A DNA stretch of 64,000 nucleotides, taken from NCBI RefSeq assembly GCF_018918095.1, contig NZ_JAHLPV010000006.1, positions 1 through 64,000 on the forward strand, read 5' to 3'. Source of the stretch: Acetivibrio sp. MSJd-27. Lineage in GTDB: Bacteria > Bacillota > Clostridia > UMGS1840 > HGM11507. Within the stretch, counting starts at the first letter, position 1. Each line of letters begins with the position of its first letter. The notes below the pieces were generated by a model, which was not told the DNA's origin, did not search any database, and saw only the letters and a program-made list of their open reading frames with translations. Made by a program: the position numbers and the translations under genes. This document shows, piece after piece, positions 41,726 through 48,714 of this stretch.

Positions 41726-42607
41726 ATGGATATGCAAACATTTCAATCGGAATGGCAGACGAAACGGGCTAAAATTGATCGATATCTTCAAAGCGATCTG
41801 AAAAGAGAAGAATGCTATTACAGCACAGTTTACAAGGCTATGAATTACAGTGTACAAAGCGGCGGAAAACGCATTCGCCCGGTTCTTCTGATGGCATGTT
41901 ATGAGCTGTTTTCCGATAATACGGAAGAAACCTTGCCTTTTTGTGCGGCGATGGAGTATATTCATACCTACTCCCTGATTCATGATGATCTGCCCTGTAT
42001 GGATGATGATGAACTCAGGAGAGGAAATCCTACCTGTCATGTGAAATTTGGCGAAGCAATGGCTGTTTTGGCAGGGGATGCATTGCTTAACAGAGCTTAT
42101 GAGAAAATTTTTTCTTCCTCTCATCCGAGAGCGATGAAAGCGGGAGAAATCATTTCTTTCTATGCTGGCAGCGAAGGCATGATCGGCGGTCAAGTTATCG
42201 ATATGGAAAGTGAAGGAAAGGAAATTTCCGCTGAGAAATTGGAAAAATTGCAGGAATTGAAAACCAGCGCATTGCTTTCTGCATCCTGCGGAGCCGGTGC
42301 TGTACTCGGCGGGGCAGATGAAAAAGAGACAGCACATCTGAGAGAGTTTGGTAAACTGCTGGGTCTTGCTTTCCAGATACAAGATGATATTTTGGATGTA
42401 ACATCCACAAGCAGTGAACTGGGAAAACCGGTTGGCAGCGATGAGAAAAATCATAAAACTACTTACGTTTCTCTGTTTGGATTAGAAAAATGTCAAAATT
42501 TGAATCAGCAGCTGACGGAGCAAGCTATAAAAAGCCTGGATCTTTTTAAAGAGAGAGCGGATTTTTTAAAGGAACTAGCCTTATGGCTGTTAAACAGGAA
42601 AAAATAA
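41726..42607 (+). CDS. ispA: (2E,6E)-farnesyl diphosphate synthase
   Basis: The 293-residue prenyltransferase has the first aspartate-rich motif DDLPCMDDDELRRG and the second DDILDVT. It makes short-chain prenyl diphosphates from IPP and DMAPP. In OLE-bearing Firmicutes this gene sits directly upstream of the OLE RNA. Here a DUF212 gene comes between. Confidence 0.95.
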   Translation: MDMQTFQSEWQTKRAKIDRYLQSDLKREECYYSTVYKAMNYSVQSGGKRIRPVLLMACYELFSDNTEETLPFCAAMEYIHTYSLIHDDLPCMDDDELRRGNPTCHVKFGEAMAVLAGDALLNRAYEKIFSSSHPRAMKAGEIISFYAGSEGMIGGQVIDMESEGKEISAEKLEKLQELKTSALLSASCGAGAVLGGADEKETAHLREFGKLLGLAFQIQDDILDVTSTSSELGKPVGSDEKNHKTTYVSLFGLEKCQNLNQQLTEQAIKSLDLFKERADFLKELALWLLNRKK

Positions 42608-42638: not shown

Positions 42639-43088
42639 ATGAAGTATATCATTGAATTTTTTTCAAATTCTATATTGATGGCGGTACTTTTGAGTTGGTT
42701 CACTGCCCAGGCATTAAAGGTTGTTTTTGTTTTGATAACGAACCGTAAGTTTGATTTGCAGAGATTTGTAGGCTCAGGCGGCATGCCAAGTTCACATTCT
42801 TCGTTGGTTATGACTTTGGTTGTTATGGTTGCCAGAGCAGATGGAATCTCATCCACGACGTTTGCCCTCGCTTTGGCATTTGCGGTTATTGTTATGTATG
42901 ATGCAATGGGAGTCCGCAGAGCAGCCGGAGAGCAGGCGAAAACCATAAATATGATTGTAGAAGAATGGCTTCCTGATTCTGATATGCTGATGGAAGACCG
43001 TTTAAAGGAACTGATTGGGCATACACCTTTGCAGGTATTGATGGGGGCAATTTTGGGTATTGCAATCGGTCTTGTCTTTCCTTTATAG
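42639..43088 (+). CDS. divergent PAP2 family protein (DUF212)
   Basis: The 149-residue membrane protein has the DUF212 pattern: WFTAQALKV, RFVGSGGMPSSHSSLVM (a degenerate phosphatase PSSHS motif), DAMGVRRAAGEQA and the end IGHTPLQVLMGAILGIAIG. Four TM helices are predicted. The function is unknown; relatives are linked to lipid or acid phosphatase folds. It is inserted between ispA and the OLE element, 31 bp after ispA. Confidence 0.88.
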   Translation: MKYIIEFFSNSILMAVLLSWFTAQALKVVFVLITNRKFDLQRFVGSGGMPSSHSSLVMTLVVMVARADGISSTTFALALAFAVIVMYDAMGVRRAAGEQAKTINMIVEEWLPDSDMLMEDRLKELIGHTPLQVLMGAILGIAIGLVFPL

Positions 43089-43155: not shown

Positions 43156-43184
43156 TTGCTTTTCATTAGACAATATGGTATAAT
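43156..43184 (+). promoter_or_regulatory. promoter upstream of a short hairpin-terminator unit
   Basis: TTGCTT (43156-43161), a 17-bp spacer and TATAAT (43179-43184) with an upstream TGG. The predicted start is near 43191, directly before two hairpins. Confidence 0.55.
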
Positions 43185-43190
43185 AAAATC

Positions 43191-43240
43191 AAATTGAAAA
43201 GATAGAAATCTTTTCAATTGCTTGCAAAGCAAGCTTTTTG
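43191..43240 (+). ncRNA. candidate ~50-nt transcript: perfect hairpin plus terminator
   Basis: AATTGAAAAGAT (43192-43203) pairs perfectly with ATCTTTTCAATT (43208-43219) and is followed at once by GCTTGC/GCAAGC (43220-43225 with 43229-43234) and five Ts. With the promoter just ahead this looks like a complete small-RNA unit, or simply the terminator region of the upstream operon. Confidence 0.35.
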
Positions 43241-43289
43241 TATTTATAAAATGCAAAAATGATTTTGATTACACCGAAAATACTGCTGT

Positions 43290-43356: not shown

Positions 43357-43365
43357 TGGTATAAT
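43357..43365 (+). promoter_or_regulatory. extended -10 promoter of the OLE RNA
   Basis: TGGTATAAT (hexamer 43360-43365) lies 12 bases before the closing stem of the RNA, the right distance for initiation at its 5' end. The -35 region is poor, suggesting dependence on the extended -10 or on an activator. Confidence 0.6.
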
Positions 43366-43377
43366 AAATTGTAAATT

Positions 43378-43976
43378 AGACGGTGCAGTATTCTAGTCGG
43401 CTGATTCGATTTCGAAGGCGGGCCTAAAAATCCGCTGTCGGGCATATCGATGAAGTTCCTGGTGTCCGCTTTGGACGCCCAGTCTGGGGTGGATGCTGGG
43501 AGTTAAGGTTGCGGGGCGTTTCGCAATGGCATGTGAAGTTCGTACCTGCTTCCGTGGAGACTTAAGCTTGTGGCCTTTCTCTTCTGTGCCTTTGGGCGCA
43601 AGGAGGAGGCTACGACTTAGGATAAGAACCTACTATGCGGTGTTTCTGCTGTGAGTAGAGTAGCCTGCCTTGAAGTGGATATGGGGGACGTGAGATCAGA
43701 TTTCTGCCTAGAGGCCTATAGGCAGAGGTTATCGCTCATTGAAACCATGTTTGCAAAAGAGGCTAAGATTCGATGAAAGTCGTTGAGGAAATCTTCTAGA
43801 CTGTTTTATAAGTAATTTGTGGATTGCAGTGTGGACTAAGTGGTGATCAAGTTTTGCATCAGGCGACTATGCAAAAAAGGGTTTAATGGGGAACCACCGC
43901 TACGGCAACGGGCGGCACTCTTTTAGGAAATCTTACTTGACCTAAGCCACAAACTTTACACAAATTATCACCGTCT
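43378..43976 (+). ncRNA. ole: OLE RNA (ornate, large, extremophilic RNA)
   Basis: A ~600-nt, G+C-richer, protein-free element lies between the ispA/DUF212 genes and an OapA-type membrane protein gene followed by dxs, the characteristic OLE neighbourhood. Its ends pair: TAGACGGTG (43377-43385) with CACCGTCTA (43969-43977), a perfect 9-bp closing stem. Internal hairpins include GGTGTCC/GGACGCC (43461-43467 with 43473-43479) and CTGCCTA/TAGGCAG (43704-43710 with 43719-43725). No ORF of note is present. OLE RNA binds OapA at the membrane and in Halalkalibacterium affects tolerance to cold, short-chain alcohols and Mg2+. Identification rests on context, length and structure; I could not run a covariance model. 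Confidence 0.87.
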
Positions 43977-43995
43977 ACTTTTTATTATCTGATTC

Positions 43996-44068
43996 AATAA
44001 GGGGCATTCCCTATCATTCATTCAATCAGCAGGAGATAGAACTCCTGCTGAAAAAGAAAGCGATTCAC
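43996..44068 (+). repeat. dispersed structured repeat, copy B
   Basis: This copy resembles 10937-11010: AATAAGGGGCATTCCCT, then hairpin CAGCAGGAG/CTCCTGCTG (9 bp, perfect) and GAAAAAGAAAGCG. Relative to copy A, arm positions change with pairing kept. It sits between the OLE closing stem and the oapA ribosome site, so it would be in the oapA leader. Confidence 0.6.
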
Positions 44069-44136: not shown

Positions 44137-44709
44137 TTGGATAAAACCGATGGCAGTACGTGCAAAAAGAAAAAAAAGAAAAAAAGTAATGCGTCATGGA
44201 TTGCTTTAGTGGTTACCATGACTTTTGTCATATCTATCACAATGTCCTTTGTCACGAATAGTTTGACCGAGAATTTAAATATTGTATTTGCCGGACTGAT
44301 TTTGTTGTCTATTATCGCAGTCGGAATTGTTTTTGACATCATTGGGATTGCGGTTACAGCGGCAGATGAAACACCGTTTCACGCCTTGGCTTCCAAAAAG
44401 AAAAAAGGAGCGAAAGCTGCAATTCGGTTAATTCGTAACGCAGAGAAGGTATCGAGTTTCTGCAATGACGTTGTGGGGGATATCGCCGGAATTATAAGCG
44501 GCTCTACCTCAGCGGTGATCGTTATATATATTGTGAATGCATTTCATACAAAATCCGATATTGTTCCGGGCATGATCGTCACCGCACTGGTTGCGGCTTT
44601 GACAGTCGGCGGCAAGGCAATGGGAAAATCTCTTGCCATAAAAAAATCTTATTATATTGTTCATTTTGCAGCAAATGTTTTAAGCTTGTTCGGCTTTGGG
44701 AAAAAGTAA
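44137..44709 (+). CDS. oapA: OLE RNA-associated membrane protein OapA
   Basis: The 190-residue protein has a lysine-rich N-terminus (seven K in a row at about 11-17), then about four TM helices and the central conserved block AVTAADETPFHALASKKKKG...NAEKVSSFCNDVVGDIAGIISG, which recalls DUF21/CNNM-type Mg2+ transporter segments. OapA dimers bind OLE RNA and hold it at the membrane. TTG 44137 is chosen because GAGGTGG precedes it. The gene lies 160 bp after OLE and 22 bp before dxs, as in known OLE loci. Confidence 0.88.
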   Translation: MDKTDGSTCKKKKKKKSNASWIALVVTMTFVISITMSFVTNSLTENLNIVFAGLILLSIIAVGIVFDIIGIAVTAADETPFHALASKKKKGAKAAIRLIRNAEKVSSFCNDVVGDIAGIISGSTSAVIVIYIVNAFHTKSDIVPGMIVTALVAALTVGGKAMGKSLAIKKSYYIVHFAANVLSLFGFGKK

Positions 44710-44731: not shown

Positions 44732-46576
44732 ATGAAATTATTAGATCTTATAAACCAGCCAAATGATATAAAGAAAATAAGCGATGAGCAGCTTCCTGCC
44801 CTTTGTGAAGAGATAAGGGAGTTTCTGATTCAATCCGTATCGGAAACCGGAGGACATCTTGCCTCCAATTTGGGGGTGGTGGAACTGACCATCGCTTTAC
44901 ATAAATCCTTTCAGCTTCCACAGGATAAAATTATTTTTGATGTGGGACATCAAAGTTATGTTCATAAAATTTTGACGGGGCGTAAAGAGCAATTTTCTAC
45001 TCTTCGCCAATATAAAGGACTTTCCGGTTTTCCAAAAACCTATGAAAGTGAATATGATACCTTAAATACAGGACACAGTTCTAATTCTATTTCGGTTGCG
45101 CTCGGAATCCGCCGCGCCTTTGATTTGACAGGAAATAAAAGTAAAGTTGTTGCTCTGATCGGGGATGGCGCTTTGAGCGGCGGAATGGCCTATGAGGCGT
45201 TGAACGATGCGGGACAAGGCAGAGACAATGTCATAGTTGTGCTCAATGACAATCAGATGTCAATCTCCAAAAATACTACCGGAATTTCAAACTATCTGAG
45301 TAAAATTCGTACAACGATCCGCTATCTGGATGCAAAAAATTCCATTGAGAATATGTTTAAAAATACACCGAAATTGAAAAAACTGATTCATAATACAAAG
45401 AATGTATTGAAACATGTTTTGGTGTCAGGGGCAATATTTGAAGAACTGGGTTTTTCCTATTACGGCCCTTATGACGGACATAATATCAGTGAACTGTGCG
45501 ATGTCTTTCAAGCAGTAAAACATATTGAACATCCGGTTTTGATTCATGTAATCACCAAAAAAGGCAAGGGATATCTGCCGGCGGAAATTGCACCGGAAAA
45601 ATATCACGGAGTGCCTGCTTTTGATTCCAGCTGCGGTATTGCAAAGACGAAGAAGAAAAATTATTCCTCTGTTTTTGGGGAAAAACTTTGTGCACTTGCC
45701 CAGCAGAATTCGCGTATCACAGCCATCACTGCCTCTATGCCTGACGGCACCGGATTAAGTGCGTTTGCCGGCCTATATCCGGAACGTTTTTATGATGTAG
45801 GAATTGCGGAGGAGCATGCAGTATCCTTGGCTACCGGTCTTGCATTGGGAGGATGCATTCCTGTTTTTGCAGTATACTCTTCCTTTCTGCAGAGAGGTTA
45901 TGATCAGGTTTTAACGGATGTAGCCTTGATGAATACACATGTAGTCTTTTGTGTCGATCGGGCGGGATTGGTCGGAGAAGACGGAGAGACACATCAGGGA
46001 ATTTTTGATTTGTCTTATCTTAGCCATATTCCGAATTTAACCATTTTATCTCCTGCCAGTTTTCAGGAATTGGAAATGATGTTGGAATATGCGGTGCAGT
46101 ATATGAACTCGCCGACGGCTATCCGCTATCCAAGAGGCGGAGAAGGAGCGGTTCTGCCCAAATGTCCTCCAATAGAAACCGGAAAAAGCGTCGTGCTCCT
46201 GGACGGGGAGGACGCGGTTATTGTAGCGGAAGGTAGGATGGTTTCCGTAGCATTGGAAACCGCATACCGTCTTCGTCAGGAAAATATTTATTCGGCTGTA
46301 ATTAATGTTCGTTCCATTAAACCTTTGGATGTTGATTTGATGCAAATGTATGCCCGGAGCACAGGCAGAATGGTCGTGATTGAGGAAAATGTAAAAAGCG
46401 GTGGATTGGGGCAGTCTGTTTTAGATTGTATAAAGGATATTCCCAATACAAAACTGCTTCTTAAATGTATTCCAGATGCGTTTATTGAACACGGATGTGT
46501 CTCGGAGCTTCATAAGGTTTGCGGATTGGACAGCGAATCTGTATTTTCAGAAATGAAAGAGGTGCTTTTTGCTTGA
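44732..46576 (+). CDS. dxs: 1-deoxy-D-xylulose-5-phosphate synthase
   Basis: The 614-residue thiamine-diphosphate enzyme makes DXP from pyruvate and glyceraldehyde 3-phosphate, the first MEP-pathway step. It begins LLDLINQPNDIKKIS, with the TPP motif GDGALSGGMAYEALN...NDNQMSIS, the mid-domain VGIAEEHAVSLATGLA and DRAGLVGEDGETHQG. ATG 44732 gives the family N-terminus. With ispA and ispH also in the window, isoprenoid synthesis is well represented. Confidence 0.96.
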   Translation: MKLLDLINQPNDIKKISDEQLPALCEEIREFLIQSVSETGGHLASNLGVVELTIALHKSFQLPQDKIIFDVGHQSYVHKILTGRKEQFSTLRQYKGLSGFPKTYESEYDTLNTGHSSNSISVALGIRRAFDLTGNKSKVVALIGDGALSGGMAYEALNDAGQGRDNVIVVLNDNQMSISKNTTGISNYLSKIRTTIRYLDAKNSIENMFKNTPKLKKLIHNTKNVLKHVLVSGAIFEELGFSYYGPYDGHNISELCDVFQAVKHIEHPVLIHVITKKGKGYLPAEIAPEKYHGVPAFDSSCGIAKTKKKNYSSVFGEKLCALAQQNSRITAITASMPDGTGLSAFAGLYPERFYDVGIAEEHAVSLATGLALGGCIPVFAVYSSFLQRGYDQVLTDVALMNTHVVFCVDRAGLVGEDGETHQGIFDLSYLSHIPNLTILSPASFQELEMMLEYAVQYMNSPTAIRYPRGGEGAVLPKCPPIETGKSVVLLDGEDAVIVAEGRMVSVALETAYRLRQENIYSAVINVRSIKPLDVDLMQMYARSTGRMVVIEENVKSGGLGQSVLDCIKDIPNTKLLLKCIPDAFIEHGCVSELHKVCGLDSESVFSEMKEVLFA

Positions 46577-47389: not shown

Positions 47390-48238
47390 ATGGAAATTAA
47401 AAAGGTTGGAATTATTCTAAAAAGCGAAAGCCAGATTGACATTTTGGACAATCTGATTGAAATGCTTCATAATCACAATAAAGAAATCTATTTTAGCTGT
47501 GAGCTGCCAAAGAAACCGTTTGCTAACATGGTATCGGCTGAAAAATTTTATCAGATTGTGGATTTAATCATTGTGCTCGGAGGGGATGGAACTCTTTTAA
47601 AAATCGCACAGGATGCAGCAATTCACGGCATTCCGATCTTAGGAATTAACTTCGGCCATCTGGGATTTTTATCGGAACTGGAAAAGGAAGATTTAAAAAT
47701 ATTAGAGCGTATGCTTCATGGTCGGTATCAAATTGAAGAGCGCATGATGTTAAAATGCACCATCTTATCTGACGGGGAATCAAAATGTTATTATGGTCTG
47801 AATGATATTGTGATATCCAGAGGTGCAATGCCAAGGATGATTCATTTTAATATTCATGTGGAAAATCAATGTGTGGAAGAATACATTGCCGACGGTCTGA
47901 TTTTGGCGACGCCAACCGGCTCCACTGCTTATTCTCTTTCTGCAGGAGGCCCTATTGTTGAACCGAGCACCGATTTGATTATTGCAACGCCCATTTGTCC
48001 CCATTCCATCAAATCCCGTTCGTTGATTATAAGCGGGCAAAGAAAGGTCAAAGTCGGATTAGATGAGGCATATAATGCGACCGCTTTTATCAGTGTGGAT
48101 GGAATGGAAAACATTATCGTTCCTCCTTCCAGCAGCATTATCATAGAGAAGGCGGAATACACCACGAAATTACTTCGCGTTACGGACAAAAATTTTTATT
48201 CTATTTTGAAAGAGAAATTGACGGAAAGAGGTGTTTGA
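47390..48238 (+). CDS. nadK: NAD kinase
   Basis: The 282-residue enzyme phosphorylates NAD to NADP. It has the GGDGTLLKIA motif, LGINFGHLGFLSE, the second conserved region LNDIVISRG and the ATPTGSTAYSLSAGGPI glycine-rich loop. ATG 47390 is preferred; upstream open sequence lies within tlyA. Confidence 0.96.
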   Translation: MEIKKVGIILKSESQIDILDNLIEMLHNHNKEIYFSCELPKKPFANMVSAEKFYQIVDLIIVLGGDGTLLKIAQDAAIHGIPILGINFGHLGFLSELEKEDLKILERMLHGRYQIEERMMLKCTILSDGESKCYYGLNDIVISRGAMPRMIHFNIHVENQCVEEYIADGLILATPTGSTAYSLSAGGPIVEPSTDLIIATPICPHSIKSRSLIISGQRKVKVGLDEAYNATAFISVDGMENIIVPPSSSIIIEKAEYTTKLLRVTDKNFYSILKEKLTERGV

Positions 48239-48240
48239 AC

Positions 48241-48714
48241 GTGAAAATAAAAAGACAACGTGCAATACTCGATTTGATAAAAAAAGAGGAGATTACAACA
48301 CAAGAAGAACTTTCTGAATATTTAAACCGAATGGGTTTCAAGGTGACGCAGGCAACGGTATCCCGCGATATCAAGGAACTAAAGCTGCTGAAAGTACCAT
48401 CCGAACACAGCAAGGGCAGCAAATATGGATATCTGGAGACAAGAAACACAAATCCGGCCAGCCATGCGATGAACCGATTGACCAGTATTTTTAATGATAC
48501 GGTTCTATCGGTTGATTATGCGGTGAATTTGGTTGTTATAAAAACATTGGAGGGTATGGCGCAGGGGGTTGCAGCTGTTTTGGATGCTCTGAATGATGAT
48601 AGTATTATGGGCACAATTGCCGGCGATAACACCATTATGATCATCACGAAAAGTGAAGTGAAAGCCAAAGAACTTTCTGAAAAGCTAAAAAATTTATTGA
48701 ATTTTTCGAACTGA
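48241..48714 (+). CDS. argR: arginine repressor
   Basis: The 157-residue protein has an N-terminal winged helix (TQATVSRDIKELKLLKVP) and a C-terminal hexamerisation/arginine-binding domain (GTIAGDNTIMII). GTG 48241 follows GAGGTG. ArgR beside recN and the MEP genes is the common Firmicutes arrangement. Confidence 0.95.
   Translation: MKIKRQRAILDLIKKEEITTQEELSEYLNRMGFKVTQATVSRDIKELKLLKVPSEHSKGSKYGYLETRNTNPASHAMNRLTSIFNDTVLSVDYAVNLVVIKTLEGMAQGVAAVLDALNDDSIMGTIAGDNTIMIITKSEVKAKELSEKLKNLLNFSN

Follow-up and report, generated by a model that had tools for sequence, protein, structure and literature searches.

A full-length OLE RNA gene and its partner genes in the clostridial genome of Acetivibrio sp. 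MSJd-27

Among structured bacterial RNAs with no known biochemical activity, OLE RNA is one of the largest. In H. halodurans it belongs to a membrane-bound OLE RNP that takes part in Mg2+ and stress responses (PMC9723947, PMC12265935; on the mechanism also PMC12286853, PMC12054373), and its gene there, which lies within an operon, is also served by a promoter of its own (PMC9723947). In the published model, helices P1 and P2 lie at the 5′ and 3′ ends of the molecule, in domain 2, and P3+P3.1 make up a stem proposed to cross the membrane (PMC12265935), for which ~12 bp would be long enough. Cryo-EM structures of OLE have revealed dimer contacts formed by the loops L4 and L9 (PMC12286853). RNA-only multimers are likewise formed by ROOL and GOLLD, two other large ornate bacterial RNAs (PMC12286853), which are nevertheless families distinct from OLE. 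Closer to it stand variant 1 (TANB77) and variant 2 (RF39), also found in anaerobes, in which P7 and P8 are shortened or missing and whose hosts largely lack OapB and OapC (PMC11332333).

This article describes the OLE RNA gene found in a 64,000-nucleotide stretch of the Acetivibrio sp. MSJd-27 genome, hereafter the window. With full-length OLE (RF01071) it shares all the model positions, every helix, the dimer loops, P1/P2, the adjoining oapA and isoprenoid genes, and a putative promoter of its own. With variants 1 and 2 it has the conserved core in common, but here P7, P8, OapB and OapC are all present; ROOL and GOLLD have no Rfam match in the window. It is an unmistakable but unremarkable member of a family already recorded in thousands of related bacteria, and it leaves existing knowledge of OLE unchanged. 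A member with all its partners is still of some use, because so large and structured an RNA has no known biochemical activity.

Identity and extent of the gene

When the 64-kb window was searched with cmscan, RF01071 was matched on the plus strand at 43364-43990, untruncated and over all 616 model positions, with 474.4 bits (E=4.1e-136) against a gathering score of 50. A sequence-only reading of the same DNA had seen at 43378-43976 a protein-free, heavily structured element of ~600 nt, had taken it for a full-length OLE RNA, and had proposed this very search, in which the lack of an OLE match would have spoken against it. The strong match upholds that reading, whose boundaries are off by no more than 14 nt from the ends of the Rfam match and by no more than 1 nt from the closing stem. 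Between 43089 and 44118 neither strand contains an ORF of at least 80 aa, which rules out a protein-coding gene at this locus and agrees with the element being protein-free. Its structured nature is confirmed as well: the minimum free energy of the OLE region is -228 kcal/mol, compared to -188 (sd 8) for shuffled sequences (z -4.9). In the cmscan alignment P7, P8 and P9 are all full-length. Having P7, P8 and the loops for dimer formation, the RNA is of the full-length type; the first two also rule out the shortened variants. That the element at 43364-43990 is an OLE RNA gene can be taken as virtually certain.

A covariance-model scan of the 3.05-Mb genome found a single OLE copy, the window's own, and the same scan gave no OLE match in any of 14 control genomes. 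No tRNA or tmRNA was found in the window, where the only other Rfam family is a distant PyrR binding site (RF00515, 59976-60103, 56.8 bits), the leader of a pyrimidine operon.

Helices and loops of the RNA

The molecule is closed by P1, whose 5′ arm TAGACGGTG (43377-43385, plus strand) is the perfect complement of the 3′ arm CACCGTCTA (43969-43977, plus strand). Judged on the window's sequence alone, a perfect run of 9 bp turns up in ~2% of shuffles. The comparison with relatives is more telling: in 68 OLE loci, with the arms held in a fixed register, own partners pair at 7.13 of the 9 positions and partners swapped between species at 6.12 (sd 0.12, maximum 6.56, 2,000 trials); if the register is left free, the longest helix averages 8.4 for own and 6.8 for swapped partners. 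The perfect 9-bp closing stem noticed in the sequence-only reading is therefore genuine on comparative grounds, even though P1 is missing from the Rfam structure line of the RF01071 match. Next inward comes P2, in which GCAGTATTCTAG pairs with CTAGACTG; its 5′ side lies in the conserved segment GCAGTATTCTAGT (43385-43397) and its 3′ side is TCTAGACTG (43795-43803), both on the plus strand. Relatives display compensatory switches in this helix (CAG/CUG, CAC/GUG, CUG/CAG and CGG/CCG), and the adjoining U-A pair becomes C-G.

The elements used for dimerisation are intact in the cmscan alignment (all on the plus strand). The P4 hairpin (43417-43436) carries a CCTAAAAATCC loop with the A-rich L4 sequence CCUAAAAAUCC, corresponding to the A-A dimer contact, and the apical loop region of P9 (43706-43718), corresponding to the dimer kissing loop, retains the palindromic GGCC of L9 at 43713-43716 (contacts as in PMC12286853). 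The window's RNA departs from the RF01071 consensus: the loop of the hairpin at 43560-43622 (plus strand), which we name P7 from the order of the helices, contains a 17-nt insert (gugccuuugggcgcaag), and a small hairpin near model positions 424-436 is shortened. Its P3+P3.1, predicted to consist of 11 interrupted pairs, is on the short side: relatives have mostly 11-16 and typically 13 pairs, and some others also have 11; these figures come from well-parsed relatives only, automatic parsing having picked the wrong segment in a number of others. In P6, a candidate anti-Shine-Dalgarno mimic for bS21, ACCUGCUU (43544-43551), is one change away from ACCUCCUU, and the mimic looks imperfect in this RNA.

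A separate complementarity may be due to chance: AATACTGC, upstream of OLE at 43279-43286, could pair with the conserved OLE sequence GCAGTATT at 43385-43392.

Promoter, neighbouring genes and partners

An extended -10 promoter-like site, TGGTATAAT, is found at 43357-43365 on the plus strand, accompanied by a poor -35; its spacing predicts a start near 43372. The motif recurs upstream of most OLE relatives, as a rule 23-34 nt ahead of the conserved OLE block, and agrees there at a mean of 6.9 of 8 positions, where shuffled sequences reach 5.6. The own promoter that had been proposed for this element is thus retained as a promoter-like site whose position is kept in relatives. A second such site, TTGCTT-17-TATAAT preceded by TATGG and near-identical to that of OLE, occurs between the DUF212 gene and OLE, in a segment (43156-43239) that has no Rfam match. 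Directly after it come a hairpin of 12 bp and a second one that, with its TTTTT, resembles an intrinsic terminator; this arrangement would yield a transcript of ~50 nt.

The expected gene order, with OLE between ispA/DUF212 and an OapA-type gene followed by dxs, is corroborated by Pfam matches. Upstream of OLE are xseA, xseB, an ispA-type polyprenyl synthetase gene (41726-42607; PF00348, E 5e-62) and a DUF212 (divergent PAP2) gene (42639-43088; PF02681, E 8e-50). Downstream are oapA (44137-44709, with a TTG start after GAGGTGG), dxs (44732-46576; PF13292, E 3e-117), genes for an FtsJ/S4 protein and NAD kinase, argR (48235-48714; TIGR01529, 147.7 bits, above the cut-off) and recN; the genes given here with coordinates are on the plus strand. 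ArgR has been named, as unpublished, as an OLE partner in H. halodurans (PMC12265935). Being on the same strand and just 5′ of oapA, the element could be imagined as a structured cis leader, an attenuator or riboswitch that regulates oapA-dxs, rather than a trans-acting RNA. But the match is complete and to an independent RNA family of ~600 nt, ~146 nt separate the end of OLE from oapA, the first gene 3′ of it, and there is no terminator-like site at the OLE 3′ end on the plus strand. Moreover, some genomes have OLE beyond the fetched oapA flank, and H. halodurans OLE works as an RNP (PMC9723947), so that a cis leader is extremely improbable. The gap between OLE and oapA also contains a perfect 10-bp hairpin, TCAGCAGGAG/CTCCTGCTGA (44026-44051), with no T run after it, possibly a processing or regulatory element.

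The OapA of the window is 47-53% identical to OapA-type proteins in the eight aligned genomes, with which it has an invariant FCNDVVGD block in common. The aspartates of this block, four residues apart, probably correspond to D100 and D104, altered in the H. halodurans PM1 mutant. A tree of OapA proteins places it within Clostridia sequences and gives strong support to no particular nearest group. It matches CNNM/DUF21 weakly (E 7.9e-6), a likeness already published for OapA (PMC11332333). Elsewhere in the genome, a 93-aa protein encoded between map and infA matches OapB (PDB 7k9b, E=1.8e-13), a protein encoded between rpoC and rpsL matches OapC, or YbxF (PDB 4lck, E=2e-14), and a bS21 gene is present. 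Judging by these matches, the genome encodes OapA, OapB, OapC and bS21 as putative OLE partners.

Sequence, structure conservation and partner genes, which are observed directly here, combine with what is known from the studied relatives into a single explanation. An RNA of ~600 nt would be transcribed from the extended -10 promoter, probably with some read-through from the upstream gene cluster, and would fold into an architecture closed by P1/P2. As in those relatives, it may dimerise via the P4, P5/P6 and P9 loops and be held at the membrane by OapA, the product of the next gene; OapB, OapC/YbxF and bS21 would probably join as further partners. The window's OLE is then most likely the RNA scaffold of a membrane-bound OLE RNP, which would adjust Mg2+ handling as well as energy and stress responses. 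Against it speak the 11 pairs of P3+P3.1, a number shared by other relatives, and the imperfect look of the P6 mimic. We give this explanation as a whole a probability of about 85%; taken by itself, the operation of the stress-response mechanism in this host appears somewhat likely.

OLE, MpfA and the range of hosts

OLE and MpfA are anticorrelated, and species with OLE rarely have more than one MpfA (PMC11332333). The window's genome encodes, besides OLE and OapA, an MpfA-type CNNM protein of 436 aa (L101:3561-4871, on genome contig C20). Among nine genomes of the host's order, one of them 88% and another 77% complete, it alone combines OLE/OapA with this type of Mg2+ exporter: OLE and OapA occur without a full CNNM (MpfA-type) protein in five genomes from another family, and the three from the host's own family lack both of them and encode a full MpfA-type protein. 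The pattern fits the published anticorrelation, but nine genomes are too few for a claim. This small order, where OLE segregates from the protein proposed to replace it, MpfA, offers a possible set of genomes for comparison under the replacement hypothesis of Fernando and Breaker (2024). Might this OLE then be a decayed, non-functional remnant in a species that now depends on its MpfA-type exporter? The 436-aa protein, the sibling genomes that have MpfA and lack OLE and OapA, and the weak P3 would suit such a history, but the conserved motifs and helices are all intact at 474 bits, the putative promoter is kept, oapA is intact and OapB, OapC and bS21 are present, which makes a remnant very unlikely. 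It is also doubtful, if less so, that the host has been caught in an evolutionary hand-over, with a complete OLE RNP set and an MpfA-type exporter as two Mg2+/stress systems.

A genome collection was scanned with OapA and the best 80 loci were kept: OLE lies within the fetched flanking DNA in 74 of these, and elsewhere in the same genome in five of the other six. By published accounts, oapA is found only together with ole. One Butyricicoccus MAG with oapA has no OLE match in its whole 2.1-Mb assembly, possibly owing to a gap in the MAG. OLE has been counted in 2,822 Bacillota species/genomes, gut clades included (PMC11332333), and its hosts have already been called extremophilic and/or anaerobic, with uncultured gut clades among them (PMC9723947, PMC11332333). 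The suggestion that the label "extremophilic" is too narrow was hence right, but already in print. By their record titles, many of the OapA relatives come from rumen, rectum, rabbit or chicken samples, and thermophiles, Thermosediminibacter and Thermoclostridium, are also found among them.
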